Of a stretch of DNA of 64,000 nucleotides, positions 2,643-23,062 are shown piece by piece. Origin of the DNA: Kordiimonas marina. GTDB lineage: Bacteria; Pseudomonadota; Alphaproteobacteria; Sphingomonadales; Kordiimonadaceae. The translations under genes were made by a program, and so were the position numbers. Numbering within the stretch: position 1 is the stretch's first letter; each line of letters opens with the position of its first letter. The stretch spans positions 186,001 through 250,000 of the forward strand of contig NZ_JAINDF010000004.1 in NCBI RefSeq assembly GCF_023006325.1, written 5' to 3'. The notes below the pieces were generated by a model, which was not told the origin of the DNA, ran no database searches, and saw only the letters and a program-made list of their open reading frames with translations.

Positions 2643-3422
2643 TTACATGGTCCATTCTTCGCCCTTCATCTGGCGGTGGCCTTCGGGCGAAACGCGCAAG
2701 ACCATCCGGTCCTTCAGCCGCATGTCAATGACGCTGATTTCGCGTTCAAGCAAGCGGTGTTTGCGTTCAAATTCGATAAAACGGTTCCAGGCGGCTTCAG
2801 CGCCGTAGGGCTTCTGGTCTTCCTCCGGTAATTTCACCCGGATGCCGTTCGAAAAGATCAGGTCCCAGCGGCGTTCACCCACCCGCACGGCGCTGCGTAC
2901 ACGCGCTGCCAGTTCGGGGGATTTTTCGAGCATTGTCTCCAGCGCCTTCACGTGCGTCTGTGCACCATTGCCGACCACCAGCATCAGGTGGGCGAACTCA
3001 CCCAGGCCCTTGTCGGTGATCACCACCCCGTCCGGGTCGATCAGGCGGATCTTGCCGTGGTCCTGCCACAAAGCATAGGGCTGGCGTTCATGCAGGCGGA
3101 TATTCAACTCCCCCGGCAGCACACGGGTTACTTCCGCGCGTTTGACCCACGGCAATGCCTCCAGCTTCTTCTGGATCTGGCCGAGGTCGATGGCGAGAAG
3201 CGGCACACCGGTGTCAACATCGAGCGCGGCCAGCACATCCGAGCGCTTGCTGCGGTCGATCCCGTCAATCTTGAGGTTTTCAAGGACAAAACCGGCATCC
3301 CGCGTGCCTTCGACGAACAAGTTTTCCATCGACGGCGCCGCCACGACCGCATAGATGGCGGCCGGCGCCAAAAGCATCAGCGTCAGGAACATACCCCAAT
3401 GGTGCCTGATTGCAGTCCTCAT
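2643..3422 (-). CDS. ftsQ: Cell division protein FtsQ
   Basis: FtsQ is the bitopic divisome protein that links early cytoplasmic and late periplasmic division proteins. The 259-residue product has one membrane segment near residues 10-28. A POTRA-like domain follows at about residues 45-115 (VLENLKIDGI to LNIRLHERQP), then the FtsQ/DivIB beta domain. The cytoplasmic N-terminus is only about ten residues, shorter than in many alphaproteobacteria; the start is set by an ATGA overlap with the murB stop and no better upstream start is seen. In many relatives ddl sits between murB and ftsQ, but here the two genes overlap directly. Confidence 0.93.
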   Translation of the reverse strand: MRTAIRHHWGMFLTLMLLAPAAIYAVVAAPSMENLFVEGTRDAGFVLENLKIDGIDRSKRSDVLAALDVDTGVPLLAIDLGQIQKKLEALPWVKRAEVTRVLPGELNIRLHERQPYALWQDHGKIRLIDPDGVVITDKGLGEFAHLMLVVGNGAQTHVKALETMLEKSPELAARVRSAVRVGERRWDLIFSNGIRVKLPEEDQKPYGAEAAWNRFIEFERKHRLLEREISVIDMRLKDRMVLRVSPEGHRQMKGEEWTM

Positions 3423-4360
3423 GCCTTTTGGCCTCCCGCATTATGGTTGCCGAGAATGCGGATTTCCCATTCGAGTTCCACACCCGTTTCTTCCTTCACC
3501 CGCTTGCGGACCATCTCGCCCAGCGTTTCGATGTCTTCCGCGCTGGCATCGCCGTGGTTGATCAGGAAATTGCAGTGCTTTTCCGAAACCTGCGCCCCGC
3601 CAACCCGGAGGCCGCGGCAGCCCGCCTTGTCGATCAGCTCCCAGGCTTTCATGCCGTCCGGGTTCTTGAAGGTGCTGCCGCCGGTGCGCGTGCCGATCGG
3701 CTGGCTTTCCTGCCGCTCGCTCATGATGCGCGCCATCTCGGCATTGATGTCATCCACATTGCCTGCCCGCCCCTGCAAGGAGCCGCTCAGGATGATCATG
3801 GCATCCGTGATCGCGCTTTCGCGGTAGCGATAGTCGAAATCCTCAGGCCGCAGTTCATGAACATGGCCATAGCGGTCGACCGCATGGGCATGCAGGAGGG
3901 CATCCTTGACCTCGGCCCCATAGGCCCCGGCATTCATGCGGAGCGCGCCGCCGATGGTACCGGGAACCCCAACCAGGAATTCAAGGCCAGTCAGCCCTGC
4001 CCGCGCGGCAGCCTTGGCAACATGCACGTCCATGGCCGCAGCCCCGGCTTTCACCACATCGCCGCGAATGACGATATTGGCAAACGCCCGGCCAAGACGG
4101 AGCACGACACCATCCACGCCGCCATCACGGACCAACAGGTTGGAGCCGACACCGATAACGGTAAGCGGCACATCCCCCGGCAAATGCCGCAGGAAAGCCA
4201 CAAGGTCCGCCTCATCGGCCGGCTCGAACAGCACGTCGGCCTCGCCTCCGGTCCGGAACCAGCTAAGCCGGGCCAGCGGTGCCTTCTTGACAAGCCGGCC
4301 ACGGACATGCGGCAGGCTGTCGAGAAAACTCAATTTTTTCTGTTCAGCCATCAGTTTCAC
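3419..4360 (-). CDS. murB: UDP-N-acetylenolpyruvoylglucosamine reductase MurB
   Basis: MurB is the cytoplasmic FAD enzyme that reduces UDP-GlcNAc-enolpyruvate to UDP-MurNAc with NADPH. The 313-residue product has the PCMH-type FAD-binding fold: [15 protein letters not shown] near residue 83 and the [18 protein letters not shown] segment. The catalytic-serine motif [12 protein letters not shown] follows near residue 225. The short length and single-loop C-terminal part fit the type IIb enzymes common in alphaproteobacteria. It overlaps murC by 4 bases upstream and ftsQ by 4 bases downstream, so all three are probably translationally coupled. Confidence 0.97.
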
Positions 4361-5778
4361 CCCTCATGGTTACCCCCAAGTTTCACCAATGCGTCCGGCA
4401 GGTCGTTCGCCCACTTACTGATCGACCCAGCCCCAAGACACACAACAACGTCCCCCTCCGACGCGTGACGGCGGATGGCGTCTGCGAGGTCGCTTTCGCC
4501 CTCAATCGCTTCGACATGACGGTGGCCATGGGCCTTAAGCCCCTCAACCAGATGGTCACGGTCCGCGCCTTCAATCGGCTGCTCGCCCGCTTCATAAACC
4601 GGCGCGACAAGCACAGCGTCAGCATCGTTGAAGCAGGTACAGAATTCTTCGAAAAGGCTATGAAGCCGGCTGTAGCGGTGCGGCTGGACAACCGCGATAA
4701 CCTTATGGTCGAAACTGTCGCGCGCGGCTTTGAGGACCGCCGCGATCTCGACCGGGTGATGGCCGTAATCGTCGATGATGGTGACACCGTCCACCACGCC
4801 CGTGCGGGTGAAGCGGCGTTTAACCCCGCCGAAATTCTTGAAAGCGGCGCGGAGCACGTCATCAGATGCGTTCATCTCAAGCCCGACCGCGATGGCCGCC
4901 AGGGCGTTCTGAACATTGTGCTGCCCCGGCATCGGCAGGCTGATATTCGCAATTACACGGTCCTCGCCGTCAGCCCGCGCGCGCACCACCGCATCGAAGG
5001 TCACCACCCCCGCCTTGGACCGGATATTGGTTGCGCGGACATCCGCCTGCGCCGACAGGCCATAGGTGACAAAGCGGCGACCCCGGATATGGGAAATCAA
5101 CGCCTGCACTTCCGGGTGGTCGATGCACAGGATAGCGGCGCCATAAAAGGGCACGCGCTCCACAAAGGTGCGGAAGGCTTCCTTTTCGGCTTCGAACGTG
5201 CCGTAGAAATCCAGATGCTCGGCATCCATGTTGGTGACGACGGCAATGGTCGCCGGCAGCTTGACGAAGGTACCGTCGCTTTCATCGGCTTCAACCACCA
5301 TCCACTCGCCTTCACCCAGGCGCGTGTTGGTGCCGTAGCTGTTGATGATGCCGCCATTGATCACCGTCGGGTCGATACCCGCGGCTTCCAGAACGGTGGC
5401 AACCATCGAAGTCGTTGTGGTCTTGCCGTGGGTTCCCGCGACCGAGACACACCATTTCAGGCGCATCAGTTCCGCCAGCATCTCGGCCCGGCGGACAACC
5501 GGGATCATCCGGGCGCGCGCTTCCACCACCTCCGGGTTGTCTTCCTTGATCGCGGAAGAAACCACCACGACGCGGGCATCGCCAAGGTTTTCGGCCTTTT
5601 GTCCGATCTTCACCTCGATGCCCAGCTTCCGGAGGCGCTGCACATTCGCACTTTCGGACGCATCCGAGCCCTGTACGCTATAGTCCAGGTTATGCAAGAC
5701 TTCCGCGATACCGGACATGCCGATACCGCCGATACCGACGAAGTGAATCATGCCAATGTCGAACGGAATACCGCGCAT
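4357..5778 (-). CDS. murC: UDP-N-acetylmuramate--L-alanine ligase MurC
   Basis: MurC is the cytoplasmic ATP-dependent ligase that adds L-Ala to UDP-MurNAc, the first stem-peptide step. The 473-residue product begins with the Rossmann motif [12 protein letters not shown] near residue 12. The Mur-ligase P-loop [11 protein letters not shown] lies at about residues 114-124, then the central-domain segment EADESDGTF and a complete C-terminal domain including VVQPHRYSR. Full P-loop and full length contrast with the decayed ligase in the murF position of the same operon. The start shares one base with the murG stop. Confidence 0.98.
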
Positions 5779-6887: not shown

Positions 6888-8035
6888 TCAGCCGCCCTCC
6901 AGCCAATGGGATCGGTGCCCGGACGAATAAAGCGGTTCCGGCGCGTGAGCGCCAGCACCATACCCATGCCGATCGCCAGCGCAACCATCGAGGACCCACC
7001 ATAGGAGACAAACGGCAGGGTCATACCCTTGGACGGCAGAAGCGCCAGGTTCACGCCGACGTTGATCAACGTCTGCAGGCCGAACTGCATAATGAGGCCA
7101 GCCGCCGCCATCAGGCGGAACGGGTTTTCCTCTTCCAGAAGGTGGGCAAGCCCGCGAACCACAAGCCCCGCGAACAGGGTCAGCAGCATTACGCAGGCGA
7201 TGGCGCCGAACTCTTCGCCCATCACCGCGAAGATATAGTCGGTGTGCGCGTCCGGCAGGCTGAGCTTCACAACACCTTCACCCGGGCCAGTGCCCAGAAG
7301 GCCGCCCGAATGGAACGCCTGAATAGCCTTGTCCGCCTGATAGGTGTCCCCGCTTGCCGGGTTGATGAAACGGTCGATCCGGCTGGCGACGTGCGGCAGA
7401 AGCGCATAGCCCATGCCGACACCAACCAGCCCGGTCAACCCCGCAACCGTCAGCCACATCAGCGGCAGCCCGGCAATGGCCATCTGCGCGAAGAAGACAG
7501 CACTGATCAGCACGGTTTGCCCGAAGTCAGGCTGTGAAATCAGGAGGGCGACCACGACGGCATAGATGCCGAACGCGACACGCTTGGCCGGAATGCTGTC
7601 ATCCGTGAACTGGGCCGAGAGGATCCAGGCGGTGACGACGAAGAAGAAGGGCTTCAGGAATTCGGACGGCTGCAACGTGAAACTGCCGATCTGGAGCCAG
7701 CGGGTCGCGCCCTTGATTTCCGGCCCGACGAACAGTGTCGCCAGCATAAGGATCATCATCACCGGCAGGCCAATGATGGCCATCCGGCGCACAAGCGCGG
7801 TCGACAGCATGGAAATACCGAATATGGTGACCAGCCCCACCCCCAGGAAGAAGGCCTGGCGCTTGACGAAATGAAACGGGTCGAGACCGATCCGCTCGGC
7901 CACCGCCGGGCTTGCGGTCAGCGTCAGCCAGATACCGACCATCACCAGCGCCAGGATCAGAACCAGCATCAAGCGGTCCACAGTCCACCACCAGCGGGAG
8001 ACCAGCGAATTGTCATTGCGCGAAAAGGCAATCAT
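6884..8035 (-). CDS. ftsW: SEDS glycan polymerase FtsW
   Basis: FtsW is the multipass membrane lipid II polymerase that works with FtsI in septal peptidoglycan synthesis. The 383-residue product has about ten hydrophobic segments and family signatures such as GATRWLQIGSFTLQPSEFLK (residues about 112-131). Near the C-terminus are LLPSKGMTLPFVSYGGSS and the last transmembrane helix. Four-base overlaps with murD upstream and murG downstream place it firmly in the operon. Full length and intact. Confidence 0.97.
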   Translation of the reverse strand: MIAFSRNDNSLVSRWWWTVDRLMLVLILALVMVGIWLTLTASPAVAERIGLDPFHFVKRQAFFLGVGLVTIFGISMLSTALVRRMAIIGLPVMMILMLATLFVGPEIKGATRWLQIGSFTLQPSEFLKPFFFVVTAWILSAQFTDDSIPAKRVAFGIYAVVVALLISQPDFGQTVLISAVFFAQMAIAGLPLMWLTVAGLTGLVGVGMGYALLPHVASRIDRFINPASGDTYQADKAIQAFHSGGLLGTGPGEGVVKLSLPDAHTDYIFAVMGEEFGAIACVMLLTLFAGLVVRGLAHLLEEENPFRLMAAAGLIMQFGLQTLINVGVNLALLPSKGMTLPFVSYGGSSMVALAIGMGMVLALTRRNRFIRPGTDPIGWRAAE

Positions 8036-9399
8036 GCGTCCGCTCCCTTCATGAGGCCCTCAACAAGGGCACGGAAGGTGGCGCCCCTGTGCTCGAAATC
8101 CCGAAACTGGTCAAAGGCGGGGCATGCAGGTGACAGGAGAACCGTATCCCCGTCCGCCGCATCGGCACGGGCCAGCTCCAGCGCATGGGCCAGATCATGG
8201 CAATCGATATAATCGACATGGCCGTTGATACCGGAGGCGATAGCGTCTGCCGCCTCACCGATCAGATAGGCGCGCTTCACATTGCCCATATGGGCTGCGA
8301 GCGCATCGAAGCTTTTATCCTTCGGCCTGCCACCCGCGATCCAGAGGATGCTGCGGAAGGAGCCGAGCGCGCGCTCGGCGGCGTCGACATTGGTCGCTTT
8401 GCTGTCGTTGACGTAGCGAACACCGTCTATCGTGGCGATCACTTCCTGCCGGTGCGCAAGGCCCGGGAAGCTCTCGAACGCGGCCAGAATGGCCTCCGGC
8501 GCAAAGCCGAGCAAGCGCCCGGCCCCATATGCCACAGCCGCATTCTGCCAGTTATGGCGGCCTCTGAGCACGGTCAGACCGGCAATGCTGCCGACCGCCG
8601 TGGCCGTGCCGTCCCGGTCATCGATCAGCATCCCGTCCTCGGTGACATAAATGCCGCTGGGGGCGGTTTTCATCACCGACACGGGAACGGCCCTGTCGCC
8701 GAGTTCCGCGGCGATGGCGGCCCCGTAGGCGTCATCCACCCCGATGATGGCGGCAGCACCCGGGCGCTGCATATCAAACAGCTTGCGCTTGGCGGCAACA
8801 TAACCGGCCATATCGCCGTGCCTGTCCAGATGGTCAGGCGTGATGTTCAGAAGAATGGCGATATCGGCGGTGAAAGACCGGGTCAGGTCGATCTGGAACG
8901 ACGACATTTCAAAGACATAGACGCCATCTTCCGGCAAAGCGTCGAGCGACAGGATACCTGTGCCGATATTGCCACCGATGGCCGCCGGGCGACCGCAGGC
9001 CGCAACCATATGGCCGATCAGCGCCGTGGTGGTCGACTTGCCGTTGGTGCCGGTAACCGCCACCGTTTTGTGCGCAGGCAGTTCAGCCCGCGCGGCTTCG
9101 AATACATCGAAATCGCTGATCGTCGGCACCCCTGCGCCTTGCGCCTTTTTGACAAGCGTGTGCGGCTCAGGGTGCGTCAGCGGCACGCCCGGGGCCAGCA
9201 TCAGGGCATCAAGGGTTTTGAAATCCAGAGCGTAAAGGTCATCAGCATGGGGAACCGCCGCTTTCTGGCGATCGACATTGTCATCCCACGCGTGAACATG
9301 GGCGCCACTTGCCTTCAGCGCCTCAACGGCTGCAAGCCCGGTCCGAGCGAGGCCAAAGACCCCGACGTCCTTGCCCTTATATGCCGATGCCGTGATCAT
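8032..9399 (-). CDS. murD: UDP-MurNAc-L-Ala--D-glutamate ligase MurD
   Basis: MurD adds D-Glu to UDP-MurNAc-L-Ala in the cytoplasm, using ATP. The 455-residue product has VGVFGLARTGLAAVEAL near residue 12 in the UDP-binding domain. The P-loop VTGTNGKSTTTALIG sits at about residues 115-129, followed by NITPDHLDRHGDM in the central domain and a complete C-terminal domain with VNDSKATNVDAAERAL and the LLSPACPAFDQF motif. It lies 7 bp from mraY and overlaps ftsW by 4 bases. Intact by length and motifs. Confidence 0.98.
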   Translation of the reverse strand: MITASAYKGKDVGVFGLARTGLAAVEALKASGAHVHAWDDNVDRQKAAVPHADDLYALDFKTLDALMLAPGVPLTHPEPHTLVKKAQGAGVPTISDFDVFEAARAELPAHKTVAVTGTNGKSTTTALIGHMVAACGRPAAIGGNIGTGILSLDALPEDGVYVFEMSSFQIDLTRSFTADIAILLNITPDHLDRHGDMAGYVAAKRKLFDMQRPGAAAIIGVDDAYGAAIAAELGDRAVPVSVMKTAPSGIYVTEDGMLIDDRDGTATAVGSIAGLTVLRGRHNWQNAAVAYGAGRLLGFAPEAILAAFESFPGLAHRQEVIATIDGVRYVNDSKATNVDAAERALGSFRSILWIAGGRPKDKSFDALAAHMGNVKRAYLIGEAADAIASGINGHVDYIDCHDLAHALELARADAADGDTVLLSPACPAFDQFRDFEHRGATFRALVEGLMKGADA

Positions 9400-9406
9400 T
9401 TACGCC

Positions 9407-10483
9407 TTACCTCAGCTTCAGGGTTGCAAGGCCTACAAGGGCCAGGATGACGGAGATGATCCAGAAGCGGATAACGATGGTGGGTTCGGCCCAGCCCTTC
9501 TGTTCATAGTGGTGATGGAGGGGCGCCATGCGGAACACGCGCTTGCCGGTCAGCTTGAAGGAAGCGACCTGCACGATCACCGAAATGGTCTCAAGCCAGA
9601 ACAGGCCGCCGATGATGCCGAGCACGATCTCATGCTTGGTGACAACCGCCATGGACGCGAGCGCGCCGCCGAGGGCAAGCGACCCCGTGTCTCCCATAAA
9701 GACCATGGCAGGCGGGGCGTTGAACCACAGGAAGCCGAGCCCTGCGCCGATCATGGCCCCCGCCAGCACAGCGAGTTCGCCGGCGCCTGCCACATAAGGC
9801 ACACCAAGATAAGCCGTATAGACCGTACTGCCGACAAGATAGGCGATAAGGCCGAAAGCCGAAGCCGCAATGATCACCGGCACGATGGCAAGACCGTCCA
9901 GCCCATCGGTCAGGTTCACGGCATTGCCGCCCCACACCATGACCAGCATGGCGAAAGGCACATAGAAAATGCCCATGTTGATCAGGTAATTCTTGAGGAA
10001 CGGCAGCGCCAGCGTGTCGCCGTTGATCGTGGAAATCCAGTAGGCGACAGCACCCGTGACCAGGAACTCCAGCAGGAGCCGCAGCTTGCCCGGAACCCCG
10101 GCCGAGGTGCGCTTCGTCACCTTAAGATAGTCATCAACGAAGCCTATAGCCCCGAACGAGAGCGTGACGATCATCACCGCCCAGACATAGGGGTTGGAAA
10201 GGTCCGCCCACAGGAAGGTGGAAACGCCAAACGCCAGCAGGATCATGAAGCCGCCCATCGTCGGCGTGCCAGCCTTGGTGATGATATGGCTTTGCGGGCC
10301 GTCCTCGCGGATCGGCTGGCCCTTCTTCTGCTTGGCCTTGAGCCAGCGGATGATGCCGGGGCCGAAAATGAAGCAGATGATCAGCGCGGTCAGCACCGCG
10401 CCACCCGTGCGGAACGTCAGGTAACGGAACAGGTTGAACATGCCACCATGTTCGGAATATTGGCTGAGCAGATTATAAAGCAT
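9407..10483 (-). CDS. mraY: Phospho-N-acetylmuramoyl-pentapeptide transferase MraY
   Basis: MraY is the integral membrane enzyme that transfers phospho-MurNAc-peptide from UDP to undecaprenyl phosphate, giving lipid I. The 358-residue product has about ten membrane segments. The conserved loops are present: [12 protein letters not shown] near residue 73, the paired aspartates in GFVDDYLKV near residue 114, [10 protein letters not shown] near residue 190, and MAPLHHHYE near the C-terminus. It starts 15 bp after the murF-like gene. MraY is intact, so the cell still makes lipid I even though the neighbouring murF-like gene is decayed; an MurF activity or a different stem peptide must therefore be supplied. 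Confidence 0.98.
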
Positions 10484-10498
10484 GTTCCTTACTCCCTA

Positions 10499-11488
10499 CT
10501 ATTCCGCAAGCGCCCGGCGCGCGGTCGCCCACTGGGATGCATCAGGCCCTTCGGCCCAATCGCTCTCTTCCATATCGTCATTCAAGGCTGACCCCAGGCC
10601 CGCGAGACAAAGCGCGGCCCGGCCGAGATCAGCATCCGCGGCTTTCACCGCCGCCAGGATCATCAGGCTCAGGGCGACCCAATCAGCACCTGCGATGCCG
10701 ACCTTATAGGTCACGGGGACACCGTCTATATCCGCGCTCAGGCAAGTGCAATGGCTGTGTTCGATGATTTTGGCCGGGCGGACCGCGGCTTTCCGGGTCA
10801 TGGAGACGGTCATCACCTGCCGTCCATCTTCCACGGCACGGCGCGCGAAGGAAGCGGCAGCCTTATCCGTGATATCGACAACCAGAACCGCCTCTTTCGG
10901 GAGCGCGGACAGAAGCCCATCCACCCCTTGCACGCCGCCCGCCCCGACAAGCACCACATGCGGCGCAATCAGGCCGATGAGGTCGGCATCAGCCTCCAAA
11001 TCAAACAGACCATAGCGTGCGCTCCGCTCAAGCCGCGCCAGCGCGAGGGCGATGCGGACAGAGGGTGCAAGCCCCTCATCGGCAGCCTGCACTTCAACAT
11101 CAAGCCCAAAAACCTGTGCGAGGATAGCCGTGACAGCCCCCCTCATGTCGCCAAGTACCGCGACACGGGTCGCCGGTGCCCGGTCCCGCGCCTTCACCGC
11201 CATCTGCCTCAGGACAGTTTCGGTATTATCAACATGCACGAGCCGCGGGTCGTCACCGCCAAGTCCGGCCTGACGATTATCGACCAGCGCCGCAATGGCC
11301 CCGCGGGACAAGGCTTCGGACACATCGAGAACATCATCCCCGTGCCCAAGCGCGACATAAAGCGTGCCAGGCATTACCTTCTGCCCGGCGATATCCAGCC
11401 GGTCGGCATACCAGGGCCGGGCAGACGCAATGCCGCACCCGGCGCGAAGCTCAGCGGAGGTCCACAGGGGCACATCAAGCTGCATCAC
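10499..11488 (-). CDS. MurF-like protein lacking P-loop and C-terminal domain
   Basis: This gene sits exactly where murF (UDP-MurNAc-tripeptide:D-Ala-D-Ala ligase) belongs. Its 329 residues still resemble MurF in places: the N-terminal domain with PGTLYVALGHGDD near residues 40-52, and LGRAALCLAGLG near residues 288-299. Where MurF should have GSNGKTTT (about residue 110) it reads VAVLGDMRGAVTAIL, with no GKT/S and no catalytic lysine. The middle domain is shortened and the protein stops where the roughly 150-residue C-terminal domain should begin; typical MurF is 450-480 residues. The frame is clean from an ATGA overlap with murE to a stop 15 bp before mraY, so this is not a simple frameshift. 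It cannot be an ordinary ligase; a structural or regulatory role, or slow decay, are the alternatives. Homology rests on position and residual similarity only. Confidence 0.8.
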   Translation of the reverse strand: MMQLDVPLWTSAELRAGCGIASARPWYADRLDIAGQKVMPGTLYVALGHGDDVLDVSEALSRGAIAALVDNRQAGLGGDDPRLVHVDNTETVLRQMAVKARDRAPATRVAVLGDMRGAVTAILAQVFGLDVEVQAADEGLAPSVRIALALARLERSARYGLFDLEADADLIGLIAPHVVLVGAGGVQGVDGLLSALPKEAVLVVDITDKAAASFARRAVEDGRQVMTVSMTRKAAVRPAKIIEHSHCTCLSADIDGVPVTYKVGIAGADWVALSLMILAAVKAADADLGRAALCLAGLGSALNDDMEESDWAEGPDASQWATARRALAE

Positions 11489-12936
11489 TCGCCCTCCCCC
11501 GCTAGAATTGCCCGCACCGCCTCGATATCCGAGAAAGGCAGTATCTTGTCACCGACGATCTGGCCTTCTTCATGGCCTTTGCCCGCGACGATCAGCATAT
11601 CGCCATGCTCAAGCTCGCGGATCGCGGTCCGGATCGCCTCGCCACGGTCCCCGATCTCGGTAGCGTGCTCGCTTGCCGCCATGATCTCGGCGCGGATCGC
11701 GGCCGCGTCTTCGCTTCTCGGGTTGTCGTCGGTCACGAAAACCTTGTCGGCAAGCGCTGCGGCCAGCGCGCCCATCTGCGGACGCTTGCCGCTATCGCGG
11801 TCACCACCACAGCCGAACACGACCAGAAGCCGCTTGGGATTGTGCGCCCGCGCGGCCTGAAGCACGGTCTTGAGACCATCCGGCGTGTGGGCATAGTCAA
11901 CGAAGACGGCGCCGCCCGATTTGGATTTGCCGATCAGCTCCATCCGCCCCGGCACACCCCTGAGGTGCGCGAGCGCCGCGAACGCATCCACGGGATCCGC
12001 ACCGGTCGCGATGGCGAGCCCCGCGGCCACGAGCGCGTTGCCTGCCTGGAAGAAGCCGACAAGCGGCAGGTTGATCTTGTGGGTCAGCCCCGCGTGGGTG
12101 ACGGTAATTTCCTGGCCTGTCTGGTTAACAGTTTGCCCGGTAAGGCGAATTTTCGCCCCTTCCCCGGTGCCGACGCTCAGGCTCACGAGCCCGCGCGCCC
12201 AGACGATATCCTCAAGGATCTGCCCCCACGGGTCATCGACATTGATGACCGCGGTGGACCCCGGCGCGAGCAGTTCTCCGAACAGACGGGCTTTGGCGAA
12301 GAAATAGCCCTGCTCGGTCTTGTGATAATCCATATGGTCGCGGGTGAGGTTGGTGAAGGCCGCCGCCTTCAGGTGCACCCCATCAAGCCGGTACTGGTCA
12401 AGCCCGTGGCTGGAAGCCTCAATCGCGGCATGGGTCACGCCCGCGTCCGCGAGGTCCTTCAAGGCGGCATGAAGCGCCATCGGGTCCGGCGTCGTCAGCC
12501 CGCCCGATACATTGACATGCTCGGAGCGCACGCCAAGCGTACCGACACTGGCGGCCTCAAGCCCGAGATGCTGCCAGATCTGGCGGGTAAAATCAGCGAC
12601 CGAGGTTTTGCCGTTGGTGCCAGTCACCGCCACCATGGTTTCAGGTTGGGCATGGTAATAGCGGGACGCGAGATCGGCATAACGCCTGCGCGGGTTCTGG
12701 TCCTCAACCACCGGCACGCCGATATCATCCGGCGCACCATGCGGCGTGGTCAGAATGGCGGTCGCGCCTTTCGCGACTGCATCGCGGATGAAGGTACGGC
12801 CATCCATCTTGGTGCCGGGCAGCGCGACGAACAGGTCCCCCGGACGCACGGCACGGCTGTCAACGGTCATGCCCGAGATACGAACATCTCCCGCTACCTT
12901 TCTGCCGCCCAGCAATTCCGTCAGGGTTAGTGTCAT
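11485..12936 (-). CDS. murE: UDP-MurNAc-L-Ala-D-Glu--meso-diaminopimelate ligase MurE
   Basis: MurE adds the third stem-peptide residue in the cytoplasm. The 483-residue product has TVDSRAVRPGDLFVALPG near residue 24 and the P-loop VTGTNGKTSVADF at about residues 104-116. LTRDHMDYHKTEQGYFFAKA lies in the central domain, and a full C-terminal domain follows with VFVTDDNPRSED. The DNPR motif is the known marker of meso-diaminopimelate specificity, so the stem peptide is of the usual Gram-negative type up to position 3. Its stop overlaps the start of the murF-like gene, and it lies 11 bp after ftsI. Confidence 0.98.
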   Translation of the reverse strand: MTLTLTELLGGRKVAGDVRISGMTVDSRAVRPGDLFVALPGTKMDGRTFIRDAVAKGATAILTTPHGAPDDIGVPVVEDQNPRRRYADLASRYYHAQPETMVAVTGTNGKTSVADFTRQIWQHLGLEAASVGTLGVRSEHVNVSGGLTTPDPMALHAALKDLADAGVTHAAIEASSHGLDQYRLDGVHLKAAAFTNLTRDHMDYHKTEQGYFFAKARLFGELLAPGSTAVINVDDPWGQILEDIVWARGLVSLSVGTGEGAKIRLTGQTVNQTGQEITVTHAGLTHKINLPLVGFFQAGNALVAAGLAIATGADPVDAFAALAHLRGVPGRMELIGKSKSGGAVFVDYAHTPDGLKTVLQAARAHNPKRLLVVFGCGGDRDSGKRPQMGALAAALADKVFVTDDNPRSEDAAAIRAEIMAASEHATEIGDRGEAIRTAIRELEHGDMLIVAGKGHEEGQIVGDKILPFSDIEAVRAILAGEGE

Positions 12937-12947
12937 TGGCCCCTATC

Positions 12948-14645
12948 CTACCGGTGGTGTTTATAGTCGTGGATGAGGAGGGAGGTCTTCTGATAGAGCC
13001 CCTCGTCTTCCTTCCGCGGCGCGATACCCAGAAGCGGCGCCGTCCGCAAAATCACATTCTTGACCACAGGGGCTGCCACCCAGCCGCCGGTCTTGTAGCC
13101 AAAGGTTTCCTTGGTGCCGTGCGGCTCATCGAGGAGCGCGAACACCACATAGCGCGGGTCATCCATCGGGTAAGCGCCGACGAAGGACGAGATCAGCGAA
13201 TGCCGGGCATAGCCGCCATTTTCCGCCTTCTCGGCCGTCCCGGTCTTACCGCCGACACGGTAGCCGATGGCGTTGGCCCGGCCGCCCGTGCCCTTCATCA
13301 CCGTCAGGCGCAGAAGCTGGCGGATCTTGCGGCTGGTCGCCGGGCTGATCACCTGCCGTCCGCCATGGTGCAAACCGCTCGTATGGATAAGCGTGGCCGG
13401 CATCAGCCGCCCACCATTGACCATCGCCGAAATACCGGTGGCCAGCTGGACCGGGCTCACCGCGATACCGTGCCCATAGGAGATGGTCATTGTGGAAATT
13501 TTGTGCCACTGAGCGGGATAAATTGGGGCACCGACTTCGCTGAGCTCCAGGGTCGACGGCTGCAACAGCCCAACCTTGGACAGGAAGGCCTGCTGGCGTT
13601 CGGTGCCGAGGTCCAGCGCCATCTGCGCCGTCCCGATGTTCGACGAATAGACGAAAATCTCCGGCACGCTGAGGAATCTGTTGCGCGGATGGTCATCATG
13701 GATGGTGAAGCGCGCCACATGCAGGGGCTTCGAGGCATCATAGCCGTCATTCATCGTGACCACACCGTCATCAAGCGCCGCGGCGAAGGTGAAGGTTTTC
13801 ATGGTGGAGCCAAGCTCATACACACCCTGGCTCACCCGGTTGAAGCGTTCATCGGCGCTGACGCCGGTCACATTGTTGGGGTCATAATCCGGCAGGGACA
13901 CCATGGCGAGCACTTCGCCGGTGTTGACGTCCATCACAAGGCCCGCGGCCCCCACAGCCTGATAGGCGTTCTTGGCGGCTTCCAGCTCATCGGCAAGGGC
14001 ATACTGCACCCGTACGTCGATCGACAGCTTCACAGGCTCGGTGGTCCGGTCCGGGTCGTCCAGGCGGTCATTGAAGAAATGCTCCACCCCGGCCAGGCCC
14101 TTGCCGTCCACATCGACGAAGCCGAGCGCATGCGCGGCCAAGCGCCCGTGCGGGTAAACCCGCTCTTCCTCATCCTGGAACGCGAAGGCCGGAATACCCA
14201 GCGCATTGACCTGCCATTTTTCACGCGGCGTCAGCTTGCGCTTGAGCCACACGAACTTACGGCCGGAGGACAGCTTTTCCTCAACATCCGCCAGCGACAG
14301 GTCCGGCAGCACCGAAACCAGTTTGGCAGCCGCCAGTTTCGGGTTCTTGATCTCGCTCGGGTTGGCGTAAAGCGAGGAGGTTTCCAGGTTGGTCGCCAGA
14401 ATTTCACCGTTGCGGTCCACGATATCGGCACGCGCCACCTTGACCGGCGGCACCTCGATCGTACGGGTCGCTACCTGCTTTTCCGCCGTGGTGCTGATCC
14501 CAAGCTCAATGGTCCGCGCCGCCATGATGGCAAAGCCCAAAAGAAACAGCAGCACCGCAACCGTCAGCCGCCCACGGGCGATTTCCAGCGCCGTCTTGCG
14601 CTCCCCTTCCAGAACCGGGCTATGATAACTGTAGGCGACGCTCAC
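12948..14645 (-). CDS. ftsI: Septal transpeptidase FtsI (penicillin-binding protein 3)
   Basis: FtsI is the class B penicillin-binding protein that cross-links septal peptidoglycan in the periplasm. The 565-residue product has one N-terminal membrane anchor at about residues 30-48 (LTVAVLLFLLGFAIMAART), the PBP dimerisation domain, and the three transpeptidase motifs: STMK in YELGSTMKTFTF, SSN in VYSSNIGTAQ, and KTG in VGGKTGTAEKAENGG. It overlaps ftsL by four bases. An intact transpeptidase implies a D-Ala-D-Ala donor stem peptide, which makes the decayed MurF and absent ddl nearby more puzzling. Confidence 0.97.
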   Translation of the reverse strand: MSVAYSYHSPVLEGERKTALEIARGRLTVAVLLFLLGFAIMAARTIELGISTTAEKQVATRTIEVPPVKVARADIVDRNGEILATNLETSSLYANPSEIKNPKLAAAKLVSVLPDLSLADVEEKLSSGRKFVWLKRKLTPREKWQVNALGIPAFAFQDEEERVYPHGRLAAHALGFVDVDGKGLAGVEHFFNDRLDDPDRTTEPVKLSIDVRVQYALADELEAAKNAYQAVGAAGLVMDVNTGEVLAMVSLPDYDPNNVTGVSADERFNRVSQGVYELGSTMKTFTFAAALDDGVVTMNDGYDASKPLHVARFTIHDDHPRNRFLSVPEIFVYSSNIGTAQMALDLGTERQQAFLSKVGLLQPSTLELSEVGAPIYPAQWHKISTMTISYGHGIAVSPVQLATGISAMVNGGRLMPATLIHTSGLHHGGRQVISPATSRKIRQLLRLTVMKGTGGRANAIGYRVGGKTGTAEKAENGGYARHSLISSFVGAYPMDDPRYVVFALLDEPHGTKETFGYKTGGWVAAPVVKNVILRTAPLLGIAPRKEDEGLYQKTSLLIHDYKHHR

Positions 14646-17102: not shown

Positions 17103-18251
17103 ATGACAACACTGACCGGCACAACCGGGGACGATACATTGATCGGCAGCCCCGGAAACGACATCTTTTCAGGCGGCACAGGATCGGACGTGTTCGTCCT
17201 GGCATCAGGCGGCTACAGCGACTGGGGAGCAGATCGGATTACCGACTTCCTTCCCGGCGCCGACACCATCGACCTTTCGGCAACCGACCTGCATTATTTT
17301 GACCTCACCCTGACGGCGTCCGACGGCGGTACGCTCATCACAGACGGCCTTGGCAATAGCCTGATGCTGGACGGCGTCGATGTGGCGGAAATGAATAATG
17401 ACCAATTCGTCTTTGCCACGTCCGTATACGTTGGCGGCACATCAGGCCCCGACCGGCTTGTGGGTACCGATGATAACAATGAAATCCTGGCAGGCGGGGG
17501 CAACGATACCATTATCGCCGGGAGCGGCCACGATACTGTGCAGGCCAGCATCGGCGACGACAAGGTCTGGGCTGGGGCGGGCGATACCGGACGAGACATC
17601 CTGATCGGTGGCATCGGCAATGATACCATGGCAGGCGGCGCAGGGAATGACCTGCTTATCGGCGGCAACTCCGGCACCCTCAACCAGGAAGCAGGCCAGG
17701 ACCACCTGATGGGGGGCCTGGGCAATGACACGCTGATTGCCGGGCATTGGCTGGACCAGAACGGCAACAACCGCTTCGACACGGGAGAAGCCAAGGCAGG
17801 AGAAGGGTCGAGCGTCTTGTGGGGCGGTCGTGGTGATGACCTGCTGATTGGCGGCAACGGCAACGACACACTCGGCGGCGGACAGAACAATGACACACTG
17901 TCAGGCGGCGCGGGTGATGACCGCCTGTTCGGCGGCGTCGGAGATGACAGCATGGAAGGCGGCCTTGGCGATGATTCCCTGTGGGGTGGCCTGGGTAACG
18001 ACACGCTCACTGGCGGTGATGGCGCTGACCATTTCATCTTCGGACGAACAAGTGGCAATGACACCGTAACCGACTTCAATGCCGATACGGATGTCCTGGA
18101 CCTCACTGCCGCAGGCTTCGCTGACAGAGATGCTCTGCTTGCCGCCACGCACACTGACGGAGCCGACCTTGTCATCAGCTTCGGCGACACTGTCATCCAC
18201 CTTTCGAACATGACGTTGGACGACCTTTTACCAGGCGCCGTACTTCTTTAA
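17103..18251 (+). CDS. RTX-type calcium-binding repeat protein
   Basis: A 382-residue protein made almost entirely of hemolysin-type nonapeptide repeats (GGxGNDxLxGG). Repeats lie at about residues 5-30 (TTGDDTLIGSPGNDIFSGG) and 115-320. The C-terminal block ADHFIFGRTSGNDTVTDFNA leads to a hydrophobic end, LSNMTLDDLLPGAVLL, like type I secretion signals. RTX repeats form calcium-filled beta rolls after secretion. No enzymatic domain and no Sec signal peptide are seen, and no type I secretion genes are in the window. An rho-independent terminator follows. It is likely a secreted or surface structural protein; its target is unknown. Confidence 0.85.
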   Translation: MTTLTGTTGDDTLIGSPGNDIFSGGTGSDVFVLASGGYSDWGADRITDFLPGADTIDLSATDLHYFDLTLTASDGGTLITDGLGNSLMLDGVDVAEMNNDQFVFATSVYVGGTSGPDRLVGTDDNNEILAGGGNDTIIAGSGHDTVQASIGDDKVWAGAGDTGRDILIGGIGNDTMAGGAGNDLLIGGNSGTLNQEAGQDHLMGGLGNDTLIAGHWLDQNGNNRFDTGEAKAGEGSSVLWGGRGDDLLIGGNGNDTLGGGQNNDTLSGGAGDDRLFGGVGDDSMEGGLGDDSLWGGLGNDTLTGGDGADHFIFGRTSGNDTVTDFNADTDVLDLTAAGFADRDALLAATHTDGADLVISFGDTVIHLSNMTLDDLLPGAVLL

Positions 18252-18859: not shown

Positions 18860-20311
18860 GTGGCATCTTATGATCCTTATCAGGCCGGAGATCTCTTCGG
18901 CCCGCAAAGCTTTGGCATGGAAGCCGTCCCACAGGCGGCAACAACGGCCAACGGCGATACACTCACCGGTTCCAATAGCGACACCCTTACCGGCTCCAAC
19001 GGCGACACCTTGACGGGGTCCAATGGCGACACGCTCACTGGCTCGAACGGCGATACGCTCACCGGTTCCAACGGGGACACCTTGACGGGATCGAACGGCG
19101 ATACACTCACCGGCTCGAACGGGGACACGTTGACCGGCTCGAACGATGACACGCTGACCGGTTCGAACGATGACACGCTCGATGGCACATCGAACGATGA
19201 CACCTCGAACGGCGACAGTTCCAACGACGACAGCTCCAACGACGATTCAGATCACGGCCAGGCTGGCGAGCACGGCCAAGGCGCCGAACACGCCAACGAC
19301 CATGCCGAATTTTTGCGCGGCGACAGCAACGACGATGTCATCGATGCCGGTAACGGCGACGACACTATCGTGGGCGGCGCTGGCGCAGACACCATCGACG
19401 GCGGCGACGGCAACGACAAGATGTGGGCTGGCAAAGGCGACGAGTCCGATGACACCTTCTCCGGTGGCAATGGCGATGACGTCATGGGCGGCGGTAATGG
19501 CAACGACAGCCTGTTCGGTGGCGAACATGGCAACGGCCATGGTCATCACGCGTCTGGCGCCGACACGATCTTCGGCGGCAACGGCGATGACGTGATCGTC
19601 GGCGGCAACTGGGAAGACACCAACGGTGACGGCCTGGTCGATAGTGGTGACACGTTCGACGACGGCACCGGCGCGACCGCCAATAGCGATGCCCTCTGGG
19701 CTGGCGAAGGCGCCGATACGGTCTATGGCGGCGCAGGCGGCGACAAGGTCGGCGGCGGCGACGGCGACGACGACATCAACGGCCTCGATGGCAACGACAC
19801 GCTTTATGCCGGTCACAGCGGTAACGATGACGTCTCCGGCGGTAACGGCGACGACATGTGCTTCGGCGGCAACGGCAGCGACACGGTCGACGGCGGCAAC
19901 GGCGACGACAAGCTGTTCGGCGGCACCGACGATGATACGGTGACCGGCGATGCCGGCAGCGATCGCCTCTATGGCGGTGAAGGCAATGACGACCTGAACG
20001 GTGGTGACGGCAACGACACGTTGTTCGGCGGCCAGGGTGACGACACCATTACCGGCGGCAACGGCGACGACATCCTTCATGGGGGTGCTGGTGCAGACCA
20101 GTTCGTCTTCGACAGCACGTCCGGCAACGATGTCATCAAGGACTTCGAAGCAGGCTCCGACATGCTCAACTTCTCGGCGGCCGGGGTTCAGTTCAGCGAC
20201 CTCACCATCACCGACACCAACGATGGCATGATGATCACCTGGGGCGACAACAGCCTGCTGTTGACCGACGTGCACGGCACGGCGGACCCGGCCTGGTTCG
20301 ACTTCATCTAA
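18860..20311 (+). CDS. RTX-type calcium-binding protein with N-terminal octapeptide array
   Basis: A 483-residue acidic protein. The start is GTG at 18860, behind AGGAGG. Residues about 31-110 are ten copies of the octapeptide NGDTLTGS, followed by a low-complexity SNDDSSNDDS linker and a His-rich HGQGAEHANDHAE. Residues about 150-420 are RTX repeats of the form GGNGDDxxxGG, with an EF-hand-like DTNGDGLVDSGD near residue 254. The C-terminal block ADQFVFDSTSGNDVIKDFEA is like that of the upstream RTX protein (17103-18251), so the two are probably paralogues. It likely leaves the cell by type I secretion. Function beyond calcium binding is unknown. Confidence 0.85.
   Translation: MASYDPYQAGDLFGPQSFGMEAVPQAATTANGDTLTGSNSDTLTGSNGDTLTGSNGDTLTGSNGDTLTGSNGDTLTGSNGDTLTGSNGDTLTGSNDDTLTGSNDDTLDGTSNDDTSNGDSSNDDSSNDDSDHGQAGEHGQGAEHANDHAEFLRGDSNDDVIDAGNGDDTIVGGAGADTIDGGDGNDKMWAGKGDESDDTFSGGNGDDVMGGGNGNDSLFGGEHGNGHGHHASGADTIFGGNGDDVIVGGNWEDTNGDGLVDSGDTFDDGTGATANSDALWAGEGADTVYGGAGGDKVGGGDGDDDINGLDGNDTLYAGHSGNDDVSGGNGDDMCFGGNGSDTVDGGNGDDKLFGGTDDDTVTGDAGSDRLYGGEGNDDLNGGDGNDTLFGGQGDDTITGGNGDDILHGGAGADQFVFDSTSGNDVIKDFEAGSDMLNFSAAGVQFSDLTITDTNDGMMITWGDNSLLLTDVHGTADPAWFDFI
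18950..19189 (+). repeat. Ten-unit 24-bp coding minisatellite
   Basis: Ten perfect-length 24-bp units in tandem, each coding for NGDTLTGS or a one- or two-residue variant (NSDTLTGS, NDDTLTGS, NDDTLDGT). Third-codon positions vary between units (GATACACTCACC, GACACCTTGACG, GATACGCTCACC), while the protein motif is nearly fixed in units 1-9. Differences stay in frame throughout. Confidence 0.95.
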
Positions 20312-20480: not shown

Positions 20481-22931
20481 TTAGCGCAGCAGCGTATCCG
20501 TATCGCAGAACCAGCAATCCTCACCGGTGGTCGCGCCAATCGGGCTACCCGGCGGTACCGCAGGACCGGCGGCGGCCTTCACGGCAGGCGTGCGGCCGCG
20601 GGCGAGCGCGTCGTCGATGCGGGCGATCAGACCTTTGCCGTAGGCTTTCATCTCACCGCTCATGCGCATGGCGGCGGTGCGCACATCCATGAGCGCGGAG
20701 CGGGCAGCGGCACTGACGTTGGGCGGTGTATCCGTGCCAAAGGTCAGCGCGATCAGATGGTTAGCGTAAACATCCGCCACAATCTGACGCAGGCGCTGGT
20801 GACGGCGGCTTTCCTTGCGCGGGCTGGCCATCAGCGTGCTCGTTGCTTCCGCAAACATCGCCTGGAGGCCAAGACCCTTCAGGTCCTGCGCGTCGACACG
20901 GGCGAGCCGGGCCGGTGCGAGCATGGCGTTAAAGGTAATATCCGCAGAAACCCGGGCGATTCCCATCAGGTCAAACTGCGGGCGGGCGGGGGCCTTGAAG
21001 GTCTCGCGCACGAAGGTCGGATCGCCGTCCGCGTATGCAACAGGTGTCAGCGTATCCAGCACTTTATCGGTCACATCAAGTGTTGCAGGTGCAACAGTTT
21101 GAAGGAGCAGGTCGAGCGCTTCCTTCTGGCGGTCCACCGACACCACGGACGGTGCCGGACGGCCATCGCCCTCATGACGATATTGGTAGATCAGACCGCC
21201 GAGCGATTTGGCCGCCGCCTGAAGCTGGTAACGGTCATACAGATAAAGCGGCACGAACTTGGCCTGCAGTGCGCCGAAGCTTTCCCCCTTCCTGAGGTTA
21301 TGCGGGCCGAACTTGTCGAGCGCGATACGGCGGACGTGCAGCGTGTTCTTCAGGCTTGCGAGCGGGTCGGAGCCCGTGTCCCACAAAGCCCCGCGGGCTT
21401 CGCCGGAGGAAATCGGACGGGAATCTTCGTCACGGATATAGACGTAGCCTTTTGCGTCGGCTTCCTTGATCAGCTTGGCGTGATCTTCATCGCCATAAAG
21501 GAAGCGGGCGTTCCACTTGTCCCAGCCGCCGATGCCGACACCGTAGGCGTGGCTGAAGTCGAGCGTGCCGTCGGCTTTCACCCGGACATCCGGGGCTGGG
21601 TAATCCATCACGCTGTGGCCGCCGGGCGCGGTGCTGGCCGCCATATTGTGACCGAAGCCGAGCGCGTGGCCGGTTTCGTGCGCCGCCAGCTGGCGGATGC
21701 GTGCGAGTGCAAGCTGAACCGGATCATCGGGCGCGCCGGTGCCGGTTTTCTCAGCCCCCGCGAGCGCCTCGAAAATACGGATATCCTGACGGACGCGGAG
21801 CGAGCCCAGAAGCACGAGGCCGCGGATCGTCTCGCCCGTGCGCGGGTCATGGATCGCGGCGCCGTAGGACCAGCCGCGCGTCGCCCGGTGCACCCAGTTG
21901 ATGACATTATAGCGGGCATCGAGGGGGTGCACGCCCTTCGGCAGCACCTTGACCTGATAGCCGTCCGGGAAGCCGGCAGCGGCGAAGGCGGCCTTCCACC
22001 AGCTCGCGCCTTCAACGAGCGCGGAGCGGATCGGCTCCGGCGCGGCGTTGTCGACATACATGACGATCGGCTTGATCGTGTGGCCGTCCTTGTCCTTCTG
22101 CAGGCGGAAGCGGCGCACCAGTTTCTTGACCGTGTCGCCATCGAGCGGCGCGGACATATCCACCTTGGAAATACCGATGATCGCGGCGCGTTCGTCATTG
22201 ACGCGCGGCACATACCCCGGTTCCGGCAGCTTGATGAAGCTCGAATGCGCGATCAGCGTCACGGCATCCGGCACCGGCGTGGTGGTCACCACCTCAGGCC
22301 CCGGCTTTTGCCCCGCGAAGGTGATATAGGCATCGAATTCATCGTTGATCGGGAAGGCATGCGCTTCCTTGGTGTCGACGAAGGAGCGGTCCTTATCGAG
22401 CTTGAAATGCCCCTGCCCACGCGCTTCAAGCCGGGCGGCAACGCCGATGGCATCGCGCTTGAGGAACCCGCTCAGGTCAATCAGCAGGCGGCCGGTTTTC
22501 TTGTCGGTCGCGATAATCGGCGTCGACCAGATGATCGAGCGCGCGAAGCTGTTCTTGACCGCATGGGCCTCCTCCGGCGCGCCGGAGGCGGTGAAGGCGG
22601 TGTTTTCAATCACCGCGGCCACATGGTCACCGATCTGCTTGAAATCGATGATCTGGCTATCGCCCGGCAGGCTGTGGTCCAGCCCCATGGGGTTCGAGCC
22701 CAGGCCGCCCGTGAGGTAGGCTGCGTAAACATAGCGCCCGGCGACACCGTCTTCATCCGGCTTCGGCAGGGCAACGAGGACCCGCGCCTTGGCACTGTCC
22801 ACATAGGTTTCGATCAGGCCTTCCTTATGTTTCAGCCCCTTGACGGCGTCGCCAAAGTCGGACGCATGGGCAGGCAAGGCGAGGAGCGCGCAGGCAACAA
22901 GGCTGCGGCTTAAAAAGGTGGGTAAGGACAT
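20481..22931 (-). CDS. Secreted zinc metallopeptidase (DUF5117/DUF4953 type)
   Basis: A large secreted metallopeptidase, 816 residues from the ATG at 22931 (MSLPTFLSRSLVACALLALP), chosen because GGGGGAA lies just before it; the longer frame adds nine residues before this. A signal peptide ends near PAHA-SDFG. Zinc motif HETGHALGFGH starts at about residue 418 and is followed by SVMDYPAP, which resembles the Met-turn of metzincin peptidases. The family matches the large TonB-era secreted zinc-dependent peptidases annotated with DUF5117 (N-terminal), DUF5118 and DUF4953 domains. Substrate is unknown. It converges on the RTX gene. Confidence 0.85.
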   Translation of the reverse strand: MSLPTFLSRSLVACALLALPAHASDFGDAVKGLKHKEGLIETYVDSAKARVLVALPKPDEDGVAGRYVYAAYLTGGLGSNPMGLDHSLPGDSQIIDFKQIGDHVAAVIENTAFTASGAPEEAHAVKNSFARSIIWSTPIIATDKKTGRLLIDLSGFLKRDAIGVAARLEARGQGHFKLDKDRSFVDTKEAHAFPINDEFDAYITFAGQKPGPEVVTTTPVPDAVTLIAHSSFIKLPEPGYVPRVNDERAAIIGISKVDMSAPLDGDTVKKLVRRFRLQKDKDGHTIKPIVMYVDNAAPEPIRSALVEGASWWKAAFAAAGFPDGYQVKVLPKGVHPLDARYNVINWVHRATRGWSYGAAIHDPRTGETIRGLVLLGSLRVRQDIRIFEALAGAEKTGTGAPDDPVQLALARIRQLAAHETGHALGFGHNMAASTAPGGHSVMDYPAPDVRVKADGTLDFSHAYGVGIGGWDKWNARFLYGDEDHAKLIKEADAKGYVYIRDEDSRPISSGEARGALWDTGSDPLASLKNTLHVRRIALDKFGPHNLRKGESFGALQAKFVPLYLYDRYQLQAAAKSLGGLIYQYRHEGDGRPAPSVVSVDRQKEALDLLLQTVAPATLDVTDKVLDTLTPVAYADGDPTFVRETFKAPARPQFDLMGIARVSADITFNAMLAPARLARVDAQDLKGLGLQAMFAEATSTLMASPRKESRRHQRLRQIVADVYANHLIALTFGTDTPPNVSAAARSALMDVRTAAMRMSGEMKAYGKGLIARIDDALARGRTPAVKAAAGPAVPPGSPIGATTGEDCWFCDTDTLLR

Positions 22932-23062
22932 ACATTTCCCCCATGAACCATTGACCACAAGGCGACTACCTTAAAGATTAGTCACGCGAATGGAAGGGGG
23001 CAGCGCGTCACGAGGGCGTGAAGAATGGCAAGGAAAGATAATTACACACCGCAGGGAATGGC

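Follow-up and report, generated by a model that had tools for sequence, protein, structure and literature searches.

MurF is normally essential for bacterial cell-wall building, and as a drug target it is regarded, to our knowledge, as soluble, universal and present in a single copy. Fusion proteins of MurE and MurF exist in Bordetella (structure 8f5d; PMC6420597). Single MurE-MurF chains of this kind also occur in five alphaproteobacteria of our sample (G321, G452, G549, G350 and G465), but those of G321, G452, G549 and G350 differ from the Bordetella proteins in carrying truncated, P-loop-less MurF parts together with a separate membrane-type MurF-like protein, which we call mMurF. MurT of MurT/GatD, a Mur-ligase-type enzyme, is reported to act on lipid II (PMC3266927), a precedent for a Mur-ligase fold on a lipid-linked precursor; MurT with GatD amidates D-Glu, whereas mMurF has membrane helices, a Ddl operon partner and MurF-type residues. 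CapB, a poly-gamma-glutamate ligase of the Mur-domain family, is placed nearer FPGS than MurC-F in PMC11915815. It is a further family member outside the MurC-F pathway, but in NCBIfam mMurF matches MurF models best, and among the 22 matches listed there is no CapB model (the library may hold none). Searches of open-access papers turned up neither a membrane MurF nor P-loop-less MurF remnants.

Compared with classical MurF (TIGR01143; structures 1gg4 and 4cvm), mMurF has the same ATP-binding and C-terminal domains, P-loop and core residues. Where MurF has its UDP-binding N-domain, however, mMurF carries membrane helices, and it is grouped with ddl outside the dcw cluster. Like MurF, the short gene studied here has the N-domain, a portion of the central domain and its position in the dcw cluster, but it is without the catalytic residues and the C-domain. 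The membrane form seems to replace MurF in unrelated bacteria, with the classical gene lost repeatedly, which makes these bacteria a natural experiment on the purpose of the MurF N-domain and on the site of D-Ala-D-Ala addition. Constrained dead MurFs, some of them fused to MurE, would be direct handles on the long-debated Mur ligase complex, and annotation that counts MurF by the usual models would score such genomes as having no MurF or give the remnant a wrong name.

The short gene in the murF slot

The window (the whole 64,000-nucleotide stretch of Kordiimonas marina DNA analysed here) contains the following dcw features, all on the minus strand:

10499..11488, minus strand: short murF, predicted catalytically dead (pseudo-MurF); 329 codons, N-domain and damaged central domain, no C-terminal domain
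11132..11155, minus strand: lost P-loop site, residues 112-119 (LGDMRGAV), from the translation and the alignment to relatives; coordinates counted by hand from the translation of the short murF
11485..12936, minus strand: murE, intact by profile matches, overlapping the short murF
9407..10483, minus strand: mraY, 15 bases downstream of the short murF
8032..9399, minus strand: murD, intact by profile matches
4357..5778, minus strand: murC, intact, from the genome search with the Mur central domain
12948..14645, minus strand: ftsI-type transpeptidase gene, named from its sequence and place in the cluster
3419..3422, minus strand: 4-base overlap of murB and ftsQ with ddl missing; ddl stands here in mMurF-less relatives (L131, L132)

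An earlier note on this DNA had described a clean 329-codon frame in the murF slot, with neither P-loop nor C-terminal domain, and each of these points held. The ORF listing of the window gives an uninterrupted frame flanked by murE and mraY. Aligned to full-length MurFs, the protein lacks the P-loop GxxGK[TS], its aligned position reading LGDMRGAV, and the alignment stops before the C-terminal domain, for which a domain search gave no Mur_ligase_C match in the short protein. Seven of eight core Mur residues are changed or deleted relative to the full-length MurFs of relatives, and the eighth is an accidental match inside a non-homologous tail. The N-domain Ser, Arg and His of MurF, which we take to be UDP-binding positions and used as markers, are all lost. 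Among curated models a MurF, NF010693, matched the protein best (E 5e-22; positions 5-321 of its 479). The protein scored 36.3 bits with TIGR01143, the generic murF model, whose cut-off is 288.6, and 17 bits with the Pfam Mur central domain (cut-off 24). Judged by the NF010693 match, identities of up to 49% to the MurFs of relatives and the slot between murE and mraY, the gene is a descendant of MurF. Its predicted product cannot be a ligase, in line with the loss of activity that the note had proposed on the grounds of the missing catalytic residues and C-terminal domain.

The C-terminal end of the protein (..RRALAE) resembles the ..RLAE and ..AAE ends of some intact or full-length relatives, which suggests that the gene may have arisen by an internal in-frame deletion. 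Two details of the earlier description had to be corrected. The junction with murE, given there as ATGA, is actually GAGTGATG, with either a GTG start and a 4-base overlap or an ATG start and a 1-base overlap. MurC, MurD and MurE are intact, as had been said, by genome and profile searches, but the operon is not otherwise intact, ddl being absent between murB and ftsQ. The dcw ddl at this position was missing from all six mMurF genomes read as well as from the window, and present in both mMurF-less ones read. The structure predicted for the short protein, based on an alignment of four sequences of window proteins, had a mean pLDDT of 34.6 and was uninformative. A separate search of solved structures with the short protein gave one match, a shikimate kinase (E 0.65), which was at chance level.

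A membrane-type MurF-like ligase and its operon

The genome of the window (G000; 3.68 Mb, 25 contigs, rated 100% complete) encodes five proteins above the cut-off of the Mur central domain (PF08245): MurE, MurC, MurD, FolC and mMurF. Whole-genome searches with PF08245 and TIGR01143 returned no ordinary full-length MurF, which speaks against a hidden one. The earlier note had placed a working MurF elsewhere in the genome, of roughly 450 residues with a GSNGKTTT P-loop. A MurF-like ligase with intact catalytic residues was indeed found, but it is not an ordinary MurF: it has 576 residues, membrane helices instead of the N-domain, and an operon shared with ddl. The locus comprises:

G000 contig C21:137485-139215, minus strand: mMurF, 576 residues, outside the window
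G000 contig C21:139999-141222: operon ddl, 407 residues
G000 contig C21:137485-141222 (L123:5486-9223): three-gene operon of ddl, alpha/beta-hydrolase and mMurF, outside the window

mMurF contains both the central and the C-terminal Mur domain (PF08245, E 2e-32; PF02875, E 2e-13). TIGR01143 matched it with 233 bits over murF positions 63-403, below the cut-off of 288.6 because the N-domain part of the profile goes unmatched; hydrophobic helices make up residues 1 to about 210 instead. Three to five segments passed a hydropathy threshold in the N-terminal region of six mMurFs. An AlphaFold2 model of the G001 mMurF (77% identical; seven sequences; mean pLDDT 82, with residues 148-167 below 50) predicts long helices in the same region. 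In a Foldseek search with this model, the best solved folds were the MurFs of Pseudomonas, Acinetobacter and E. coli (4cvm, E 2e-22; others weaker), and by sequence the nearest solved relative of mMurF is E. coli MurF (1gg4, E 1e-36). The P-loop including K233, together with E281, H311, K325, N408, R439 and D454, was invariant in seven aligned mMurFs from three phyla (alphaproteobacteria, one Peptococcaceae MAG and two Chloroflexota-type MAGs). In the C-terminal motif of the window-genome protein the first Asp is Asn and the next Asp is kept.

The mMurF gene overlaps the alpha/beta-hydrolase gene, which comes after ddl. The hydrolase of the window genome keeps a GHSFGG nucleophile motif. An omega-loop Tyr is usual for makers of D-Ala-D-Ala rather than D-Ala-D-Lac. 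The operon Ddl scored 231.8 bits against TIGR01205, just below the cut-off of 245.65, and aligns to solved Ddls; in the alignment to S. aureus Ddl (3n8d), the ...KY is kept and the omega-loop Tyr is present, so that by sequence it appears to be an ATP-grasp D-Ala-D-Ala ligase with that Tyr. Given the Ddl in its operon, the MurF-type residues it keeps and the lack of any other MurF in the genome, the MurF step most likely falls to mMurF; taking operon and co-occurrence together, mMurF is very probably the working MurF of this genome.

The ddl/hydrolase/mMurF trio was complete in all six further genomes of the order that were read (L124-L129), and stands in the order hydrolase, mMurF, ddl in the Peptococcaceae and Chloroflexota-type MAGs. 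Of 22 mMurF loci from other alphaproteobacteria, 20 included the hydrolase and 11 part of ddl, with about 1.5 kb of flank covered. Across 59 genomes of the order, the strongest Ddl match was a frame of about 310 residues in most genomes of families f3, f4, f5 and f8, and one of about 410 residues at the mMurF locus in most genomes of f1, f2, f6 and f7; gene neighbours were checked in L124-L129, L131, L132 and the other mMurF loci read. In three alphaproteobacteria (L157 of G681, L152 of G536 and L153 of G617), mMurF neighbours ftsQ or murB and sits within or adjacent to a dcw segment, not apart from it.

MurF and mMurF across genomes

The 59 genomes sampled from the order include the window genome. 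We called mMurF at E <1e-80 and counted a genome as mMurF-less when it had no match better than 1e-30, which gave 42 genomes with mMurF and 17 without. With mMurF present, 24 of the 42 genomes have MurF above the TIGR01143 cut-off; without it, 14 of the 17 do. The three mMurF-less exceptions (G030, G048 and G058) have MurF fragments at contig ends, so all 17 have MurF, three as contig-cut fragments. A canonical MurF above the cut-off was lacking in 18 of the 42 mMurF genomes, which show the following states:

G000 and G001: short murF in the slot
G003, G006, G010, G013, G014, G015, G017, G018 and G033: murE directly followed by mraY
G021 and G028: full-length MurF without the P-loop
G004, G009 and G026: P-loop kept, one or two other core residues lost
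G040 and G056: drafts, MurF state unsettled

All 14 MurFs examined from mMurF-less genomes keep the eight core residues, compared with 24 of 40 MurF-derived proteins examined from mMurF genomes (16/40 do not). Among mMurF genomes with MurF above the cut-off, 22 of 23 examined have all eight; this retention of MurF in 24/42 genomes means that mMurF does not always displace MurF at once, and a second job is possible there. In a wider sample of the GTDB order, 269 of 296 genomes have MurF above the cut-off (mMurF was searched in the 59).

The earlier note had suggested comparing the dcw clusters of relatives for conservation of the short gene. G001 carries the same truncated murF (332 residues), but the gene is wholly deleted in 8 of 18 same-genus genomes, with clean murE-mraY junctions, and likewise in G033; murF is thus dispensable in same-genus genomes. 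We placed these states on a quick tree of 59 mMurFs, in which 18 of 56 inner branches are open and support is modest. The tree requires a minimum of 11 switches between intact and not-intact dcw MurF, and a minimum of 18 among the states intact, pseudo and absent, so MurF loss recurred if mMurF follows the species. Genomes that keep the P-loop and lack other core residues (G004, G009, G026, G465 and G518) were coded as pseudo and G024, with one residue changed, as intact; the tree left out G036, G039, G040, G042, G052, G054, G056 and G331, and G300, G301 and G313 were uncounted as to state. The eight same-genus deletions form one clade, apart from G000/G001.

Among 385 alphaproteobacteria, 23 (window genome included) have mMurF at E 1e-45 or better, and 3 of the other 22 have a full MurF above the cut-off. 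The murE neighbourhood was read in 20 of these 22 (G331 and G681 were left out), as follows:

G338, G358, G369, G417, G437, G521, G534, G536, G573 and G666: murE then mraY, no MurF match between
G321, G452, G549 and G350: MurE fused to a truncated, P-loop-less MurF, mMurF present
G617: degenerate MurF of 430 residues in the slot
G465: MurE fused to a MurF in which 5 of 8 core residues are changed
G518: full-length MurF with 2 core residues changed
G415 and G497: intact MurF alongside mMurF
G313: neighbourhood read, MurF state could not be judged

A comparable pattern is seen in the order of the Peptococcaceae MAG G299 (25 genomes), where 16 genomes have MurF above the cut-off. Eight have a match of the mMurF type (for all but G299 the call depends solely on profile coverage), and six of these eight are without full MurF. 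Of the 17 without an mMurF-type match, 14 have full MurF and three (G759, G760 and G764) do not; G764 has a MurF fragment and G760 an mMurF-like fragment. In G299 itself a truncated MurF of 266 residues lies between murE and mraY, its P-loop motif destroyed with one Lys still aligning. Its relative G748 has an mMurF-type match, a MurF inside an 841-residue frame and, after murE, a MurF-like frame with one TAG (C13:8903-9739). Among 60 genomes sampled from the class of a Chloroflexota-type MAG, 53 have full MurF and at least three show mMurF-type matches among the matches listed; two of the three listed also have a full-length MurF-like frame below the cut-off. Chloroflexota as a simple source of mMurF was unsupported by this sample. 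Taken across these lineages, there are signs that a membrane form has replaced MurF on many occasions in distant bacteria.

Selection on the remnants and competing explanations

We estimated dN/dS by NG86, with YN00 as a second estimate for G021/G028; other pairs were mostly saturated. The P-loop-less MurF of G021/G028 has lost six of eight core residues and the UDP-binding residues too. Its dN was 0.031 and dS 0.613 (NG86; 0.026 and 0.621 by YN00), a ratio of 0.05, like those of murE (0.04), mraY (0.03), murD (0.07) and mMurF (0.07) in these two genomes, which indicates that this apparently dead MurF is maintained. By hand count, 14 of its 28 amino-acid differences fall in residues 144-234, which surround and follow the former ATP site, with three in residues 1-143 and none in 235-348. 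The short murF of G000/G001 gave dN 0.488 and dS 1.415, a ratio of about 0.34 that is rough because dS near 1.4 approaches saturation. This is faster than in intact MurF pairs (0.10, 0.03 and 0.16 where dS was computable, dS there also being high) and compares with 0.16 for murE and 0.19 for mMurF in the same genomes. In the MurE-fused remnants of G321/G452, where dS was saturated, dN/dS came to 0.19 in the remnant and 0.04 in the MurE portion. The window gene is under weaker constraint and is not plainly neutral. The value near 1 that the earlier note had named as the sign of simple decay was found in none of these pairs.

The explanation we favour, and consider reasonably probable as a whole, is that takeover by mMurF freed the dcw murF, which was left as a dead remnant. 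D-Ala-D-Ala synthesis and ligation would have moved from the dcw cluster to the separate ddl/hydrolase/mMurF operon, where mMurF, at the membrane, would most likely join D-Ala-D-Ala to the tripeptide precursor. In the dcw cluster, ddl would have been lost and murF released from catalytic duty, to be lost, truncated or kept without catalysis; in the window it would survive as a catalytically dead remnant, while in other relatives the gene is gone. The replacement of the UDP-binding domain by a membrane domain suggests that mMurF works at the membrane, perhaps beside MraY or on a lipid-linked tripeptide. A stricter version, in which mMurF adds D-Ala-D-Ala to the lipid I/II tripeptide after MraY, so that the order of steps is changed and a substrate-less dcw MurF becomes a structural pseudoenzyme or is lost, we regard as unlikely. 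Since purifying selection is strong, the remnants of some relatives probably have a non-catalytic job, for instance as a structural member of a MurE-MurF-MurG-MraY assembly. PMC6420597 reports that MurD, MurE and MurF make contact with MurG and that a scaffolded complex may exist, and the Mur complex would be a natural setting for a structural pseudo-MurF.

The earlier note had proposed such a pseudoenzyme role for the window gene. The idea gains from the constrained P-loop-less MurF of the related genus, where we consider a maintained non-catalytic role likely, and from the remnants in other lineages; for the window gene it is only plausible, given the ratio of about 0.34 at near-saturated dS and the deletions in congeners, and we judge a maintained role there to be evenly balanced. 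That the short murF is instead a functionless, passive remnant on its way out, open so far through its murE overlap and the polycistronic operon, is a serious possibility, if a somewhat less than even one. It would account for the fast divergence (48% identity to G001, compared with 78% for murE, 77% for mMurF and 91% for mraY), for the loss of the UDP-binding residues as well, and for outright deletion in eight congeners. Against it, dN/dS is not 1, the equivalent gene in G021/G028 is strongly constrained, and both G000 and G001 keep the frame open, although in neutral simulations with substitutions only a 329-codon frame stayed open in 3% of runs at 0.15 substitutions/site and in 0.15% at 0.3.

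The remaining readings fare worse. mMurF might perform another ligation, on a different polymer or in recycling, with the wall built without a MurF step; the 24 genomes carrying both proteins would fit, but the shared operon with Ddl and the MurF-type residues do not, MurF loss in the order occurs only where mMurF is present (contig-cut fragments aside), and the cluster still holds an ftsI-type gene, whose transpeptidases use D-Ala-D-Ala stems. We consider this improbable. More doubtful still, and very hard to sustain, is a split enzyme whose short protein binds UDP-MurNAc-tripeptide and passes it to the N-domain-less mMurF. The two proteins do carry complementary MurF regions and MurF remnants always start at the N-domain, yet nine genomes of the order and ten other alphaproteobacteria have mMurF with no MurF remnant beside murE, and the UDP-binding residues are lost in G000, G021 and G028. 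A hidden C-terminal half finds no place either, as the 15 bases between the stop and mraY leave no room for a split second half. A sequencing or assembly error in a normal murF, which the note had allowed for together with a split gene, has a negligible chance: the second genome shares the truncation, mraY follows at once, and many separate substitutions hit catalytic positions. We reject the split enzyme, the hidden half and the error alike, and the takeover by mMurF remains our preferred reading.

Elsewhere in the window, two plus-strand ORFs (17103-18251 and 18860-20311) are rich in GGxGxD-like repeats, the second starting with a near-perfect tandem of an NGDTLTGS unit, and an 825-codon ORF on the minus strand (20481-22958) contains a zinc-protease-like motif, HETGHALGFGH.
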